A DNA stretch of 64,000 nt from Gordonia hongkongensis (lineage in GTDB: Bacteria > Actinomycetota > Actinomycetes > Mycobacteriales > Mycobacteriaceae), in assembly GCF_023078355.1 (NCBI RefSeq), contig NZ_CP095552.1:1612001-1676000 (forward strand). The letters are read 5' to 3'. A program made the position numbers and the translations under genes. Below the pieces are notes generated by a model. It was not told the origin of the DNA. It saw only the letters and a program-made list of their open reading frames with translations, and searched no databases. Shown here one piece after another: positions 27,548-34,004 of this stretch; the first letter of the stretch is position 1, and each line of letters opens with the position of its first letter.

Positions 27548-29152
27548 TCAGCGGTCTGCTTCGACGTCGGTTTGTTCGGCACCGGTCTGCCCCGGCGTTC
27601 CCGCCGGTTCGCCCGGTGGGGGCACCGGTGACACGCGCCGACCGATGCCGATGCGGTCGAGGAACCCGGCATCGTGGGAGACGACCAGCAACGCACCGGT
27701 CCAGGCCTCGAGTGCGTCCACGAGTTGCGTGACGGTGTCGAGATCGAGGTTGTTCGTCGGCTCGTCGAGGATCAGCAGCTTGGGTGTCGGGTCACCGAGC
27801 AGTGCGTCGGCCAGTGCGACGCGCAGCCGTTCGCCGCCGGACAGTTCGGCGAGTGCGCGATCGGCGCGCGCACCCCGGAACAGGAACCGCGCGAGATGCG
27901 CCCGCACCTCCTGCGTCGAGATGTCCGGGTGGGTCCGCGCGAGGTGCTCGGCGATCGAGACGGTCGGGTCGGGGAAGGTGATCTGCTGCGGCACGAAGGC
28001 GAACGGTACGACGACGGATTCGGAGACGATCAACTCCGCGATCAGTGTCGATTTCCCGGAACCGTTGGGCCCCACCAGAGCCACCCGCTCGGGTCCGTCC
28101 ATGCGCAGGCGGTCGTCGACGGCGATCTGGGCGCGCGGGGCCACTTCCGGCGTCGGCACGACGATCCGCGCGGTGCGGTCGGTGCGGATGTCCTCGCGGG
28201 CCTCGTCGAGACGTGTTGCCGCAGAGGCCACGTCGTCACGATGGGCGTTGCGCAGTTTGCCCGCCGACACCTGCGCCTCGCTCCGGCGGTTGTGTGCCAC
28301 GATCTTCGGCACCCGCTTCTCCCGCTCGGCTGTCGCGCCCGTCCGGGCCCGCCGATCGAGTTTGATCAACGCCTCGGTCATCTCGCGGCGCTGCTTGCGC
28401 AGATCGCCGGCCGCGGTGGCAACCGCTGCCTCGGCGGCGTCTTGTTCGGCGTCGATGATCTCGCGGTACCGGGAGTAGGGGCCGCCGAACAGCCGCACCC
28501 GACCTCGGTACAGCTCGACTGTCGTATCGACACGTTCGAGGAGTTCGAGGTCGTGACTGACCACGACCACCGTGCCAGGGAACGACTCGATGGCGTCGAA
28601 AAGCCGGGCGCGGGAGTCGATGTCGAGGTTGTTGGTCGGTTCGTCGAGGAGCAGGATCGTCGGGTCGGCGATGAGTGCGGCGACGATCGCCAGCAGGGTC
28701 GCCTCCCCGCCGGACATGGCGCCGACCGTGCGGTCGAGGTCGGGCGGCAGTCCCATCTGCTCGAGGAGTCCGATGGCACGCTCCTCGACGCCCCAGTCGT
28801 CCCCAACTGCGTCGAAGTCCTGCGGATCTACCGAACCGCTCTCGATTCGTCGTATCGCACAACGAATCTCGTCGATGCCGAGGGCGTGCGCCACGGTCGA
28901 CGACGGGTCGGACTGCGGGTCCTGCACGACCACAGCGACATCGGTCGTCGACGTGTCGCCTGCGATCGTGATGCTGCCCGACGCCGGGCGTGATCGACCG
29001 GCGATCAGGCCGAGGAGGGTGGACTTGCCCGCACCGTTCGCGCCGATGAGGGAGTAGGTCTCGGCGCCCAGGGCGAGGTCGAGGTGTTCGAAGACGACTG
29101 TCCCGTCGGGCCAGGCGAACGAGACGTCGGACAGCACGATGGAAGACGGCAT
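27548..29152 (-). CDS. ABC-F ribosomal protection protein (antibiotic-resistance type)
   Basis: The 534-residue protein has two ABC cassettes and no membrane helix. Walker A GANGAGKST (37–45), a degenerate signature MSGGEATLL and LLLDEPTNNLD form the first. GPNGSGKST, LSGGERLRV and LILDEPTNNLD form the second. The interdomain linker (DAEQDAAEAAVATAAGDLRK to about RRSEAQVSAGKLR) is long and charged, as in ABC-F factors that reach into the peptidyl-transferase centre. Resistance to macrolides, lincosamides or related drugs is inferred. AGGAG lies 5 nt before ATG 29152. The 90-nt leader holds a 3-codon ORF and a three-way-junction structure, which suggests translation attenuation. Confidence 0.85.
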   Translation of the reverse strand: MPSSIVLSDVSFAWPDGTVVFEHLDLALGAETYSLIGANGAGKSTLLGLIAGRSRPASGSITIAGDTSTTDVAVVVQDPQSDPSSTVAHALGIDEIRCAIRRIESGSVDPQDFDAVGDDWGVEERAIGLLEQMGLPPDLDRTVGAMSGGEATLLAIVAALIADPTILLLDEPTNNLDIDSRARLFDAIESFPGTVVVVSHDLELLERVDTTVELYRGRVRLFGGPYSRYREIIDAEQDAAEAAVATAAGDLRKQRREMTEALIKLDRRARTGATAEREKRVPKIVAHNRRSEAQVSAGKLRNAHRDDVASAATRLDEAREDIRTDRTARIVVPTPEVAPRAQIAVDDRLRMDGPERVALVGPNGSGKSTLIAELIVSESVVVPFAFVPQQITFPDPTVSIAEHLARTHPDISTQEVRAHLARFLFRGARADRALAELSGGERLRVALADALLGDPTPKLLILDEPTNNLDLDTVTQLVDALEAWTGALLVVSHDAGFLDRIGIGRRVSPVPPPGEPAGTPGQTGAEQTDVEADR

Positions 29153-29160
29153 GAGCGCTC

Positions 29161-29234
29161 CTGAAGTGGGTCGGGTACACCGACAGGGCGTCGGTGGGGT
29201 CCGTCGGCGGTGCCGACGGCCGGGGCCACTTCAG
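29161..29234 (-). ncRNA. Three-way-junction leader RNA of the ABC-F gene
   Basis: Read on the minus strand, P1 pairs CUGAAGUGG (29234–29226) with CCACUUCAG (29169–29161), 9 bp. P2 is CCGUCGGC-ACC-GCCGACGG (29219–29201), 8 bp. P3 is CACCGAC-GCCCU-GUCGGUG (29196–29178), 7 bp. All three stems are perfect. The last bases of P1 (CAG) are the first part of the CAGGAG ribosome site of the ABC-F gene. The stop codon of a 3-codon upstream ORF lies in the first strand of P1. This arrangement predicts that P1 limits translation initiation and that a ribosome held on the micro-ORF opens it. Existence of the fold is read from sequence; function is inferred. Confidence 0.65.
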
Positions 29235-29242
29235 TTCTTCAT
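29231..29242 (-). CDS. Three-codon upstream ORF (Met-Lys-Asn-stop)
   Basis: ATG AAG AAC TGA lies immediately 5' of the leader hairpin, with AGGAG at 29259–29255, 12 nt upstream (longer than optimal). Its TGA is inside the first strand of stem P1. Short leader ORFs are common ahead of inducible ribosome-protection genes, but nothing proves this one is translated. Confidence 0.35.
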   Translation of the reverse strand: MKN

Positions 29243-29365
29243 CGCGGTGGATCACTCCTGGCGGGTCTGGGGGCAAGTGGTGACCACCGTAGCGGACGCG
29301 CTCGGAGTTGCCAACGGAATTAACCGCCGACGAGTCGGTTCCGGGCTCACCGCTACGGTTGGGGT

Positions 29366-30376
29366 ATGTCATTTCTCCGCACCTCGGTGTCCAACGGCGT
29401 CGGCGAGATCGTCCTGGACCGGCCCAAGGCTCTCAATGCGTTGGACCAGAGCATGATCGACGACATGTACGTCACGCTCGGCGAATGGGGTGACGACGAC
29501 GCGATCGACACCGTCCTGGTCACCTCGGCGAGCGACCGGGCGTTCTGCGCCGGAGGCGACATCCGTGCGATCCGCGAGCACGCCATCGACGGCGACCACG
29601 CCTCGATCAGCCGCTACTTCGCCGGCGAGTACCGGCTCGATCAGCTCGTCGCCGACTACCCGAAGCCCTACATCAGCCTGATCGACGGGGCGGCCATGGG
29701 CGGGGGTCTCGGGATCAGCGTGCACGGCGAGATCAGGGTCGTCACCGAGAAGGCGATGATCGCCATGCCCGAGACCGCGATCGGGTTCTTCCCCGACATC
29801 GGTTCGACCTACTTCCTGCCGCGGCTCCCGGAGGGCGTGGGCATGTGGCTCGGACTCACCGGCGCCCGGATCCGCGGTGTGGACGCGGTCGCCGTCGGAC
29901 TGGCAACGCATTTCGTGTCCTCCGCCGACCTGCCGGCGGTCGCCGACAGCATCCGTTCCGGTGCCCCGCTGGCCGACGCGCTGGCCACGTCGGGGACCGA
30001 GGACACCAGCGACGTGCCGTTGCGCAAGATCGGCGAGTACTTCGCCGACGACAACGTCAACGCCATCCTCGGCGGCCTGCGCGGCGCGGTCGGCGACGAC
30101 TGGGCCCAGGAGATGGTCGGTCTGCTCGAGGGTGCCTCACCCACCAGTCTGTGGGTCACCGCGGCGATGATCAGCGCCGGGGCGAGGTCGGGGATCGACG
30201 AGTGCTTCGACCGGGAACTGCATGCCGCAGAGGAGATCACGAAGACCCACGACTTCCGCGAGGGGGTGCGGGCCGTGCTCGTCGACAAGGATCGCAATCC
30301 CGAATTCGATCCGGCGCGCATCGACGACGTCGATCCCGCCGTCGTGGCCCGGATCGTCGGTGCCAACGCTGGTTGA
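29366..30376 (+). CDS. 3-hydroxyisobutyryl-CoA hydrolase (crotonase family)
   Basis: This 336-residue crotonase hydrolyses 3-hydroxyisobutyryl-CoA in valine breakdown. It has the marks that separate HIBCH from hydratases: AFCAGGDIRAI, GAAMGGGLGISVHG, MPETAIGFFPDIGSTYFLP and a long C-terminal region (about 190–336) with DFREGVRAVLVDKD. GGTTGGGG lies before ATG 29366. It is divergent from the ABC-F gene. Its last codons and TGA stop (GGTTGA) form the first unit of a 20-bp tandem repeat array. Confidence 0.9.
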   Translation: MSFLRTSVSNGVGEIVLDRPKALNALDQSMIDDMYVTLGEWGDDDAIDTVLVTSASDRAFCAGGDIRAIREHAIDGDHASISRYFAGEYRLDQLVADYPKPYISLIDGAAMGGGLGISVHGEIRVVTEKAMIAMPETAIGFFPDIGSTYFLPRLPEGVGMWLGLTGARIRGVDAVAVGLATHFVSSADLPAVADSIRSGAPLADALATSGTEDTSDVPLRKIGEYFADDNVNAILGGLRGAVGDDWAQEMVGLLEGASPTSLWVTAAMISAGARSGIDECFDRELHAAEEITKTHDFREGVRAVLVDKDRNPEFDPARIDDVDPAVVARIVGANAG

Positions 30377-30606: not shown

Positions 30607-31383
30607 TCAGGGCGTGAGCTGAAACCACCCCGACAACGACACGCTGTCGGTCGAGTTGCCCTCGGACTCCGGCTGTTTCGTGGCCGACGACTCGTCGAGG
30701 TCGTAGCGGACGTCGTCGTCGGGTGCGAGCGGGTTGGCCTCGACCCGTGTCGCCGTCGGGCAGGTGAACGAGCCGGCCGCGAGTGAGCCCGACATGCCGC
30801 TCACGCTGAGCTGGCACGCGGACGAGTGGTGGTAGTCGCCGTTGATCGAGACCCCGATCTGGGCGTTGATCGGTCGTGTCAACGGCCCGACGGTCGGACG
30901 CGTCGCGCCCACCGGTGGCAACAGGCCGCCGGTCAGTTCGCTGATCAGGAACTCGATCTGCGCGCCGCCGGTGCCGGCGTCCTTGAACACGAAGAGCAGC
31001 GAGTCCGGCGGCACGTCGGGCCGCGCCGGGCCCCACCGGTCGAACTCATAGCAGTTGGGCTCGTCGGCGGGGGTGGCGCCCACCGCGGGTCCGCGTCGGG
31101 AGTCCGCCGGCGTGTCCGCTACCGCGATTCTGATGTTGCCGTGACGGAACTCGAAGTTCTGGCCACTGCGGTCGACGTTGCCCTGCGGTGGTTTCTCGGT
31201 GCAGAGCGTCGAGTCGACCGGGCGTGCGGTCGGCACCGGCGTCGAGGTGGTGGGCGTGGACTGGTGCGGGGCGTCGGAGCCACAGGCGGTGACGAGCGAC
31301 GCCACCGCCGCGCACATCAGCACGGCGGCGCGCACCGGCCGGCGCCGTGTGCTCGTCGACCGGTCAGTCCGCTGCCGCGACAA
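30607..31383 (-). CDS. Putative lipoprotein of unknown function
   Basis: The product has an Arg-rich n-region (TRRRPVRA), a hydrophobic core and a lipobox LVTACGS at about residues 30–36. A Thr/Pro/Ser linker and a globular domain with three further Cys residues follow. This predicts a lipid-anchored protein outside the membrane. I do not recognise the domain. TTG 31383 overlaps the prfC tail by 20 bp; GTG 31335 would give a shorter, equally good signal peptide. The gene follows prfC on the same strand and may share its transcript. Confidence 0.7.
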   Translation of the reverse strand: MSRQRTDRSTSTRRRPVRAAVLMCAAVASLVTACGSDAPHQSTPTTSTPVPTARPVDSTLCTEKPPQGNVDRSGQNFEFRHGNIRIAVADTPADSRRGPAVGATPADEPNCYEFDRWGPARPDVPPDSLLFVFKDAGTGGAQIEFLISELTGGLLPPVGATRPTVGPLTRPINAQIGVSINGDYHHSSACQLSVSGMSGSLAAGSFTCPTATRVEANPLAPDDDVRYDLDESSATKQPESEGNSTDSVSLSGWFQLTP

Positions 31384-32974
31384 GGGGTTCGAGAGTGAGG
31401 TCGGGGTGTTCCTTCTCGATGTACTGCAGGCGCCACTTGTCGCTGAAGAGCGCGAGAACGGCGCCGTCGGTGCGGGTGAAGACCTCGACGCCGCGTTGCC
31501 GATTCAGTTCGGGCGCGCTGTCGGCATCCGTGCGACGGGCGAGGGTGTAACCGAGCGGCTCGATGATGGTGTCGACGTTGTACTCGGCCTTCATCCGCGC
31601 GGTCACGACCTCGAACTGCATCGGTCCGACGGCGGCGAGCACCGGCGACGCATCACCGCGGGTGTCGTTGCGCAGGACCTGGACCACGCCTTCGCTCTCG
31701 AGCTGGTCCATGCCCTTGCGGAACTGCTTGTACTTGTCTGCGGTGGTGGCACGCAGGGTCGAGAAGTGTTCGGGCGCAAAGGACGGGATCGGCGGGAACT
31801 GCACCTTGGGGCCGTCGTAGAGAGTGTCGCCGGGAGCGAGCGCGGTCGCGTTCACCAGCCCGACCACGTCACCGGGGTAGGCGGTGTCGACCGTCGAGCG
31901 GTCGCGGCCGAAGACGGCCTGGGCATACTTGGTGGCGAACGGCTTTCCGGTCTGCGCATGGGTCACGACCATGCCGCGTTCGAACTCGCCGGACACGATC
32001 CGCATGTACGCCAGGCGATCCCGGTGGCTGGAGTCCATCCCGGCCTGCACCTTGAAGACCACCGCGCTGAACGGGTCGGTCACCGGCCGTGGATTGCCCT
32101 CGACGTCGGCCCACGGCCCGGGCGGGGGAGCGAGCTCCACGAGGACCTCGAGGAGTTGCCGCACACCGAAGTTCAGCATCGCGGACGCGAAGATCATCGG
32201 CGAGGTCTGCCCGGCGAGGAACAATTCCTGATCGTGGTCCTGGCCCATCTCGGTGAGCAGTTCGCTCTCCTCGAGTGCCGAGGTCCACTCGTCGCCCTCG
32301 CGAGCCAGCGCGTCGTCGGCGGACATGATCTCCTCGGGCGCGATCTTCGCGCCGCCCGCGGTACGGGTGAAGTGCACGTACTCGCCGGTGCGCCGGTCGA
32401 GGAGACCACGGAAGTCGCCGGCGATGCCGACCGGGAAGAACAGCGGGGTCGGGGTGAGGCCGATGCGCTCGGTGATCTCGTCGATCAGTTCGAGGGGGCT
32501 CTGACCCGGCCGGTCCCACTTGTTGATCACCGTGATGACCGGGATGCCCCGGTGGCGGCACACCTGAAAGAGTTTGAGGGTCTGCGGCTCGAGTCCCTTG
32601 GCGGCGTCGATGAGCATCACCGCGGCGTCGACCGCGGTCAGCACGCGGTAGGTGTCCTCGGAGAAGTCGGCGTGACCCGGGGTGTCGACGAGGTTGATGA
32701 CGCTCGGGATCTCGGGGTCGGCCTGGGCTGCGGCCGAGTAGTTGAACTGCAGCGCCGTCGAACTGACGGAGATGCCGCGCGCCTTCTCCATCTCCATCCA
32801 GTCGGAGACGGTCGACTTACGTCCGGCCTTGCCGTGGACGGCGCCGGCCTCGCTGATCATCCGCGCGTGCAGCGCCAACGCCTCGGTCATCGTCGACTTG
32901 CCGGCATCGGGGTGGGAGATGATGGCGAAGGTACGACGACGCGTCACTTCGCGACTGATCACCTCGGAACTCAC
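31364..32974 (-). CDS. prfC: Peptide chain release factor 3
   Basis: This is a 536-residue translational GTPase that recycles RF1/RF2. G1 is SHPDAGKST, switch II/G3 is DTPGHADF and G4 is INKWD. The class-specific GRKSTVSDWMEMEKARGIS contains the G2 region. The C-terminal part (GVVQVLRNDTRGDASPVLAAVG) is typical of RF3. GTG 32974 starts VSSEVISREVTRRRTF. Only the lipoprotein gene follows closely. Identity is secure. Confidence 0.95.
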   Translation of the reverse strand: MSSEVISREVTRRRTFAIISHPDAGKSTMTEALALHARMISEAGAVHGKAGRKSTVSDWMEMEKARGISVSSTALQFNYSAAAQADPEIPSVINLVDTPGHADFSEDTYRVLTAVDAAVMLIDAAKGLEPQTLKLFQVCRHRGIPVITVINKWDRPGQSPLELIDEITERIGLTPTPLFFPVGIAGDFRGLLDRRTGEYVHFTRTAGGAKIAPEEIMSADDALAREGDEWTSALEESELLTEMGQDHDQELFLAGQTSPMIFASAMLNFGVRQLLEVLVELAPPPGPWADVEGNPRPVTDPFSAVVFKVQAGMDSSHRDRLAYMRIVSGEFERGMVVTHAQTGKPFATKYAQAVFGRDRSTVDTAYPGDVVGLVNATALAPGDTLYDGPKVQFPPIPSFAPEHFSTLRATTADKYKQFRKGMDQLESEGVVQVLRNDTRGDASPVLAAVGPMQFEVVTARMKAEYNVDTIIEPLGYTLARRTDADSAPELNRQRGVEVFTRTDGAVLALFSDKWRLQYIEKEHPDLTLEPLVAAAD

Positions 32975-33110
32975 GAGGTTCCAGGCTACCGGGCGTGCAG
33001 GGGGCGGCCAAACTCGCTCGCGGCGGAGTGCCGGGGCAGGTTGTGCCGGTATGCGGCACCTTGTGCCCCCGCCCAAAAACTGGGAACCCGTCACCGTTGC
33101 TGTGCGTCTG

Positions 33111-34004
33111 ATGGTCGTGCAGCTTCCACCGGGCCTTCGGCGCCGCGTTCTCGCCCGTGACGGGGTACTGACCATGGCGGATGCGCTCGAATTCGGCCTC
33201 ACGCGGTCCGCGGTCCGGCGTCGAGTCGATTGCGGAGACTGGATGCCGCACACGCGCGGGGTGTATTCGCTCGCTGATCATCCGACGACGCCGGCCACCC
33301 GTGCGCGACTGGCAGTCGCGAGCGTGGGCCGCGGTGCGGCGCTGTCCGGAGCGGGAGCGGCGTGGTGGCACGGGCTCCTCGACGAGCCGCCGAAGAAGTT
33401 CACGGTCACCGCACCGCGATCGCGGCATGGCTCTCCGGTCGAGGGCGTTCGGGTCCGGCGCCGCTGCCTCGCGGACGCGGAGGTGGTGACCCGCAAGGAG
33501 TTGCTCGTGACAGCCTTGCCGCTGTCCGTGCTGGAAGCCGCACTCGAGCGCGACAGCGGAGTCCTCGACAACGCGCTGCTCGTTCGCAAGGTCTCGCTGC
33601 GTCAGCTGCGCGTCGCCGCTGATCGTCGACGTGGCAAGGAGGATGGACCCGCGATTGCGGCCCTCGTCGACGGCGTCGAATCCGGCGCGCGCTCGGTGGC
33701 GGAGCGGCTGGCTGTCGACGTGTTGAGCGCCGGAGGTGTGAGCGGTTGGTCGTGCGGTCACCCGGCCGGCGGGTACTTCATCGACCTCGCGTTCCCGGAT
33801 CGGCTGTTGGCGGTGGAGATCGACGGGATGGCGTTCCACCGCGACGCGGAGACGTTCCAGCGAGACCGCCGACGCCGAAACGACCTCATCGCATTGGGTT
33901 GGACCGTCCTCAACTTCACGTGGAGTGATCTGCGGGAGCGGCCCGACGACGTCGTGGCGCGTGTCCGCCAGGCGCTCGGCTTGCAGCGCGACCGGCCGGC
34001 ATGA
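33111..34004 (+). CDS. AbiEi-like winged-helix plus DUF559 (PD-(D/E)XK-like) protein
   Basis: This intact 297-residue protein has an N-terminal AbiEi antitoxin-like winged helix (RRVLARDGVLTMADALEFGL, then GVYSLADHP). A middle domain follows (VTAPRSRHGSP). The C-terminal nuclease-like DUF559 domain contains FIDLAFPDRLLAVEIDG, a D-x(n)-E-x pattern (VEIDG), then HRDAETFQRDRRRRNDLI. The combination is widespread in actinobacteria, often as lone genes, and is linked by name to type IV toxin–antitoxin systems without proof. No toxin-like AbiEii gene is adjacent. A decayed paralogue lies at 10188. ATG 33111 is chosen by homology with that copy; GTG 33102 and ATG 33051 are in frame. Confidence 0.82.
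   Translation: MVVQLPPGLRRRVLARDGVLTMADALEFGLTRSAVRRRVDCGDWMPHTRGVYSLADHPTTPATRARLAVASVGRGAALSGAGAAWWHGLLDEPPKKFTVTAPRSRHGSPVEGVRVRRRCLADAEVVTRKELLVTALPLSVLEAALERDSGVLDNALLVRKVSLRQLRVAADRRRGKEDGPAIAALVDGVESGARSVAERLAVDVLSAGGVSGWSCGHPAGGYFIDLAFPDRLLAVEIDGMAFHRDAETFQRDRRRRNDLIALGWTVLNFTWSDLRERPDDVVARVRQALGLQRDRPA

Follow-up and report, generated by a model that had tools for sequence, protein, structure and literature searches.

A short leader precedes an ABC-F gene on the minus strand of Gordonia hongkongensis contig NZ_CP095552.1, and within it a three-codon upstream open reading frame (uORF) is followed by three perfect stems that run into the Shine-Dalgarno (SD) sequence of the gene. This raises the question of which parts of the leader form a conserved element, and whether a ribosome on so short a uORF could control access to the ABC-F initiation site. 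The window, i.e., the whole stretch of DNA that was analyzed, comprises 64,000 nt; coordinates refer to the window, and features lie on the minus strand unless stated otherwise.

The ABC-F gene, its promoter, and the three-codon uORF

The ABC-F gene (27548..29152, start codon ATG at 29152-29150) was taken from the list of open reading frames and encodes a protein of 534 aa with two stretches matching ABC_tran. The initial annotation had called the gene ARE-type, a label that is likely and at the same time unsettled, given that the best NCBIfam model, the ribosomal-protection ABC-F model ribo_prot_ABC_F (NF000355), scored 289.6 bits and so stayed under its cut-off of 380. In a tree of 88 ABC-F proteins, from which the LmrC, TiaA, and Are5sc reference sequences were absent, the protein could be positioned no more closely than among homologues with the are5sc and tiaA uORF peptides in their leaders. 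This tree was made by a quick method that left 27 of its 85 inner branches open, with one protein (L021) entered as a partial sequence and another (L008) as its larger piece only. The product is probably a ribosome-protection protein, with a presumed role in resistance. The divergent neighbor is a 3-hydroxyisobutyryl-CoA hydrolase gene (29366-30376, plus strand; NF004127), and prfC, encoding peptide chain release factor 3, lies nearby on the minus strand (31367-33253; NF001964, 585 bits against a cut-off of 473).

Read along the minus strand, the leader consists of an AT-rich patch, TTGGCA, 17 nt, TACGGT, AGGAG, the uORF, a hairpin region based on the helix P1, and the ABC-F ATG. By scripted scoring, the best hexamer pair was the −35-like TTGGCA (29309..29314) and the −10-like TACGGT (29286..29291), which would place the transcription start near 29280; a generic promoter scan under a stricter rule called none in 28900-29500. 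Among 35 Gordonia leaders, the spacer between the hexamers was 17 or 19 nt in 32 and 18 nt in 3. The conserved promoter-like hexamers lie upstream of the uORF, and we saw no sign of a transcription start downstream of 29234, which the initial annotation had named as an observation that would speak against its reading. The AT-rich patch TTAATT (29318..29323), a WhiB7-type motif, is located just upstream of the −35 hexamer, and positions −8 to −5 before this hexamer were 69-100% A/T in the 35 Gordonia promoters, against a background of 35%. WhiB7 is described as binding an AT-rich motif just upstream of the −35 hexamer (PMC3905903), and ABC-F genes are named within the WhiB7-regulated set of Mycobacterium abscessus (PMC10727445). 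The genome contained 8 WhiB-family matches, one of which (L277) ends in RGRPRKNVA, an AT-hook-like tail, and on account of this tail may be WhiB7-like. Judged by the conservation of the motif, the promoter of the leader is probably of the WhiB7 type.

The uORF itself, Met-Lys-Asn-stop (ATG-AAG-AAC-TGA), occupies 29231..29242 and is preceded by the SD AGGAG at 29255..29259, and the SD of the ABC-F gene, also AGGAG (29158..29162), is part of a CAGGAG that ends at 29158. On direct reading of the minus strand, this uORF, stems of 9, 8, and 7 bp, and the CAGGAG site were found exactly where the initial annotation had put them. For comparison across the genus, we built a covariance model (R1) from 12 leaders with P1 as its only structure. 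It scored 32-107 bits on four left-out leaders, among which L004 is almost identical to L005, a member of the training set. R1 matched 35 of 59 Gordonia genomes, with one match each (the training set makes up 12 of these 35 leaders), and the same 35 genomes gave the leaders of the plain MAFFT alignment A4, each located directly before the ABC-F gene.

All 35 leaders in A4 carried the uORF pattern [AG]TG-AA[CGT]-NNC-TGA, with AAC, AAG, or AAT as codon 2 throughout, one GTG start, and the encoded peptides MKN, MNS, MNI, MNN, MND, MNA, and MNR. The distance from the uORF to the ABC-F start was 68-94 nt, and AGGAG or AGGGG was found upstream of the uORF in 34 of the 35 leaders; the exception was L012, where the sole SD candidate is a GGAG right behind the −10-like hexamer. 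A short, SD-preceded, and conserved uORF is, in other words, present between the promoter and the ABC-F gene. The leaders L016 and L017 lacked a three-codon uORF although their proteins fall within the Gordonia clade of the protein tree. In L012 (genome G006), no more than 9 nt separate the uORF from the −10-like hexamer upstream of it, which suggests that the uORF is nearly leaderless.

The P1 helix and access to the ABC-F initiation site

P1 is a helix of 9 bp, whose 5′ arm (CTGAAGTGG, 29226..29234) takes in the uORF stop codon and whose 3′ arm (CCACTTCAG, 29161..29169) ends within CAGGAG. It begins one base ahead of the uORF stop and ends 8 bases ahead of the ABC-F ATG. In A4, 87.0% of the P1 cells were paired, and the covariation of P1 was 0.209 compared to 0.118 in shuffled alignments (0 of 500 as high), with slid controls reaching at most 0.127, in a comparison in which kinship was not modeled. 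Mapped on the 88-protein tree, the pair at alignment columns 36-108 (GC in 29 leaders, AU in 6) required four changes, between GC and AU only, and the pair 35-109 (GC in 20, AU in 14, GU in 1) required three. Minimum free energy folding gave P1 in every leader but L012 (34 of 35), and part of the helix was recovered unguided by RNAalifold on alignments of 16 and 35 rows. The helix is ragged: its two outer pairs fail in 6 and 8 of the 35 leaders and the two inner ones in 13 and 11, counts in which the A4 rows L120 and L121 are out of register by two columns. Comparison thus showed that P1 covaries across Gordonia leaders, and the compensatory changes whose absence would have counted against the initial annotation were present in this stem.

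A second helix may link the two start codons. In the free fold of the window, the uORF start region (29236..29246) pairs with ABC-F codons 3-6 (29146-29135, with one bulge), and in 27 of the 35 leaders the folding model paired the ABC-F start codon itself with the uORF start region in an outer helix (P0), with a mean probability of at least 0.6. The eight leaders without this start-codon pairing were that of the window (L001), L006, L012, L064-L067, and L078. Complementarity between the two start regions was higher within a leader (−9.35 kcal/mol) than after swapping between leaders (−7.00 kcal/mol), with none of 10000 permutations as low when kinship is ignored.

We modeled the cost of opening the ABC-F site with a full initiation footprint (−18 to +12 around the ABC-F start) and with a narrow measure extending from the SD to the AUG. 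For the full footprint, the mean cost over the 35 leaders fell from 20.0 kcal/mol in the free RNA to 8.4 kcal/mol with the uORF start occupied, compared to 10.4 and 10.0 in shuffles, and the drop exceeded that of all 20 shuffles in 33 of the 35 leaders. By the narrow measure, the mean fell from 14.5 to 7.0, with 26 of the 35 leaders exceeding all shuffles, and a ribosome at uORF codon 3 had a similar effect (14.5 to 7.2), whereas masking 23-32 nt in the loop changed little (14.5 to 14.1). With a ribosome on its uORF, the leader of the window went from 19.8 to 8.5 kcal/mol for the full footprint, and only this measure set it apart from shuffles; by the narrow measure it was unexceptional (10.3 to 6.5), its free cost being matched by 5 of 20 shuffles and its drop of 3.8 by 1 of 20. 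With the RNA of the window folding freely, the ABC-F SD is no more than half paired (0.50 unpaired). L012 showed almost no modeled effect (5.3 to 4.7, narrow measure). In the folding model, and there only, a uORF-bound ribosome opened the ABC-F site. Taken with the covariation of P1, the modeled energies relative to shuffles indicate that, through pairing of the uORF region, occupation of the uORF would alter access to the gene. The comparison (P1 covariation) and the folding model (opening costs) support what the initial annotation had proposed, namely that a ribosome halted on the micro-ORF melts P1 and so exposes the ABC-F initiation site.

Given that the uORF lies opposite the ABC-F start site, a ribosome stuck on the uORF should open that site. 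We consider it probable that the leader is a compact translational attenuator that senses stalling at the start codon, and it would work as follows. Without drug, a ribosome would clear the three-codon uORF fast and depart. The free RNA would then form P1, with the uORF stop facing the ABC-F SD, and the outer helix, in which the uORF start is paired with the ABC-F start region, and with both helices formed the ABC-F initiation site would be closed. A drug that arrests ribosomes on a start codon or immediately past it, most likely a lincosamide, a pleuromutilin, or a streptogramin A, would park a ribosome on the uORF. Because the footprint of this stalled ribosome would cover the 5′ strands of both helices, the ABC-F site would stay open and the ribosome-protection protein would be produced. 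The position and length of the uORF would be decisive for such a mechanism, and its peptide sequence of little weight. Transcription would probably be raised as well via WhiB7: since a WhiB7-type promoter motif, a putative WhiB7-like gene, and a translational leader occur together, drug control is likely to have two layers, with WhiB7 acting on transcription and the leader on translation.

Translational coupling could make use of the same arrangement, in that a ribosome ending on the uORF would re-start on the ABC-F gene, so that the uORF sets basal expression and senses no drug. P1 does bring the uORF stop beside the ABC-F SD, and the uORF was retained in 35 of 35 Gordonia leaders, as coupling would require. 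However, the match between the uORF-start and ABC-F-start regions within each leader would be left unexplained, as would the drug stalling reported for the tripeptide uORFs of homologues (PMC12421871), and we regard coupling as rather unlikely.

Known leaders and relatives in other genera

The initial annotation had considered a three-codon uORF unusually minimal as a sensor. This was overstated, since three-codon uORFs are reported for vmlR, cplR, vmlR2, and are5sc (PMC9226507, PMC10201436, PMC12421871). In Bacillus subtilis, the vmlR uORF is given as Met-Ile-Asn, and of three tripeptide variants described, two were at least equal to MIN and the third was poorer (PMC9226507); the cplR and vmlR2 uORFs are given as MR[I/M] and MK[L/Q], respectively (PMC10201436). 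Like the Gordonia leader, those of vmlR and cplR have a tripeptide uORF, and the inducing drugs are reported to stall initiating ribosomes. They differ in having, as described, an anti-antiterminator or antiterminator, a terminator, and SD-masking hairpins in sequence, whereas the Gordonia leader has one imperfect hairpin that holds both initiation sites. In Escherichia coli toiL-topAI, a uORF likewise pairs with the ribosome-binding site of the downstream gene and start-codon stalling frees the site, but the uORF is reported to sense drugs at later codons too, and the gene belongs to a toxin-antitoxin system and not to the ABC-F family (PMC12121999). Attenuation at lmrC has been described as well (PMC8546547). 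The tiaA leader, with the uORF MVGDDDISG, appears from the published account to act at the level of translation (PMC12421871); it differs in its nine codons, and the leaders L023-L025, which by eye carry MVGDDDISG or a close variant, fall on a starred branch of their own in the tree. In the Gordonia leader, a single compact hairpin unites a tripeptide uORF with direct pairing to the ribosome-binding site that follows. Three-codon sensors were already known, and it is the compact Gordonia form of this antibiotic-sensing leader type that is new; among the titles and abstract openings listed by full-text searches, which reach few subscription journals, none describes a leader of this kind for Gordonia or Nocardia.

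The nearest known relative is are5sc of Streptomyces coelicolor, which also has a three-codon uORF ahead of a homologous ABC-F gene. For its Met-Leu-Val uORF, start-codon stalling by lincosamides, pleuromutilins, and streptogramin A compounds has been toeprinted, and regulation is reported to occur at the level of transcription, with a 232-nt 5′ UTR (PMC12421871). Should the Gordonia uORF likewise control a terminator, as in vmlR, cplR, and are5sc, the leader would be a transcription attenuator. Besides the reported transcriptional regulation of are5sc (PMC12421871), Streptomyces homologues lend this some support: of 16 Streptomyces records, 11 had a Met-Leu-Val uORF (TTG-CTC-GTC-TGA), which lay 160-206 nt ahead of the gene in all but one, L210, where the distance was 111 nt. 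In contrast, no more than 68-94 nt separate the uORF from the ABC-F start in the 35 Gordonia leaders, the uORF stop lies within the SD helix, and a scan for intrinsic terminators (the Rho-dependent type lies outside its scope) found no terminator-like site before the gene in 28900-29500. Terminator-based control was dropped for this last reason, and we judge it very unlikely.

We then compared leaders of this ABC-F family across the order. SD-preceded uORFs of exactly three codons were present in 54 of 150 leaders, Gordonia included, against 2.1 ± 1.3 in shuffles, an excess that relatedness inflates. With the same inflation, uORFs of nine codons (20 of 150 against 1.5) and of four, eight, and ten codons (11, 8, and 7 against 1.9, 1.5, and 1.4) were also above shuffles. 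The tripeptides outside Gordonia included MLS in Nocardia grenadensis (L198; TTG-CTC-TCA-TGA, behind a similar GGAG context) and MIS in Nocardia colli (L238), the others being MLL, MLF, MIF/MIL, and MEx. Two records of the leader set were left out, L243 (main start not found) and L080 (contig ends inside the gene). For modeling, we took 44 uORFs, each from a different leader out of a set of 193; 41 of them were scored (17 near, 24 far) and three were dropped because no main-gene SD was found. The 17 near leaders, all from outside Gordonia, were picked by uORF, SD, and distance (uORF at most 130 nt away), blind to structure; their opening cost fell from 13.3 to 6.5, compared to 8.8 to 8.3 in shuffles, and 12 of the 17 beat all 10 shuffles. 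The effect was weaker in the 24 far leaders (10.7 to 8.0 compared to 8.6 to 8.5, with 16 of 24 above all 4 shuffles). In other actinobacteria, this uORF geometry is retained but the tripeptides differ.

These tripeptides also bear on whether the leader might sense an amino acid or general translation stress, with slow decoding at codons 2-3 opening P1. The invariable AAC, AAG, or AAT at codon 2 in the 35 Gordonia leaders would agree with such a sensor, as would the lowered modeled cost with a ribosome at codon 3. However, other genera carry Leu, Ile, or Glu at codon 2, so that no amino acid is common to the uORFs, and AAC may be retained in Gordonia for pairing with the ABC-F start context. 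An amino-acid-specific leader was dropped because the tripeptides differ between genera, and a sensor of this kind seems to us still more doubtful than a terminator.

Sensing of start-codon stalling by a translational attenuator could be taken one step further, in a reading that is possible and that we offer tentatively, leaning slightly against it. The uORF would mirror the ABC-F initiation site in antisense, with start facing start and stop facing SD, and its three-codon length would follow from the spacing between SD and start and from the footprint of the ribosome, not from the peptide. Such a peptide-blind sensor would turn up repeatedly in ABC-F leaders of actinobacteria whose tripeptides are unrelated (MNx, MLS, MLL, MIF, and MEx) and would be interchangeable in evolution with the terminator-based Streptomyces version. 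If true, this would account for the uORFs of exactly three codons in many ABC-F leaders and would provide a simple geometry for sensing start-codon stalling.

In eight further leaders (L089, L090, L096, L099, L101, L103, L126, and L216), there were three-codon uORFs encoding MIF, MIL, or MFL without a clear SD, and in this group the uORF stop region pairs with the region of the ABC-F start codon (TGAGAC/GTCTCA).

Inner hairpins and distribution of the leader

Two hairpins are located within P1 in the window. P2 (8 bp) is formed by CCGTCGGC (29212..29219) and GCCGACGG (29201..29208), and P3 (7 bp) by CACCGAC (29190..29196) and GTCGGTG (29178..29184), and both occur in the clade of the window only. 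All three stems were part of the minimum free energy fold predicted for 29120-29300 (z = −3.15; none of 200 dinucleotide shuffles was as good). The closed three-way junction of the initial annotation held up in so far as the three stems are in this fold, but P1 does not close the junction directly, because an extra 3-bp helix (29222-29220 with 29174-29172) does so between P1 and the junction. A pair of hairpins within P1 was found in 6 of the 35 leaders (L001, L002, and L064-L067, i.e., the clade of the window), the other 29 having one, and across all 35 the loop within P1 varied in length and sequence while P1 and the uORF stayed. In the six-leader clade, 97.5% of the P2 and P3 cells were paired (94-100%), with one double change among 162 cells, and RNAalifold found neither stem on the 16- and 35-row Gordonia alignments. 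Covariation, which had been suggested as a check on all three stems, was seen for P1 (0.209 against 0.118) but not for P2 and P3, in which the single double change was all there was. The view of the junction as the key element or a ligand site could not be upheld, as no more than 6 of 35 leaders, all from a single clade, have both inner hairpins. The three-way junction lies outside the general conserved element, and the conserved unit is the SD-preceded three-codon uORF together with a P1 that reaches the ABC-F SD. A riboswitch whose junction binds a small molecule is hardly credible and was dropped: the perfect stems of the window with their z score and the 94-100% pairing of P2 and P3 in six leaders would suit it, but the hairpin pair is confined to those six with almost no compensatory change, the variable loop offers no conserved junction or binding pocket, and no Rfam family reached its gathering score in the leader.

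Within the genus, an ABC-F homologue was found at E ≤ 1e-100 in 52 of the 59 genomes, and in the 17 of these 52 without an R1 match the protein was 45-56% identical to that of the window. One genome (G065) has two ABC-F copies, a 70% copy with the leader and a 47% copy without an R1 match. In G022, the source of L008, the leader is present and the ABC-F gene matches as two pieces; because these overlap in different frames, the gene looks interrupted or mis-assembled.

Across 397 genomes of the order, R1 under stricter filters gave three good matches, all in Gordonia, and three weak ones elsewhere (E 0.03-0.07). The weak matches (G200, G430, and G410) were set aside as chance, since no uORF motif starting with ATG, GTG, or CTG was found nearby. 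Because R1 matched only Gordonia well among the 397 genomes, the exact leader sequence looks confined to this genus. The leader L022 scored 13.5 bits with R1 (E 0.39). Six leaders of distant Gordonia ABC-F homologues (L019, L020, L026, L111, L114, and L119) have a short GTG ORF of 2-10 codons about 7 nt past a −10-like hexamer, as if leaderless, and three of these six ORFs encode M/VEIEVDRI.
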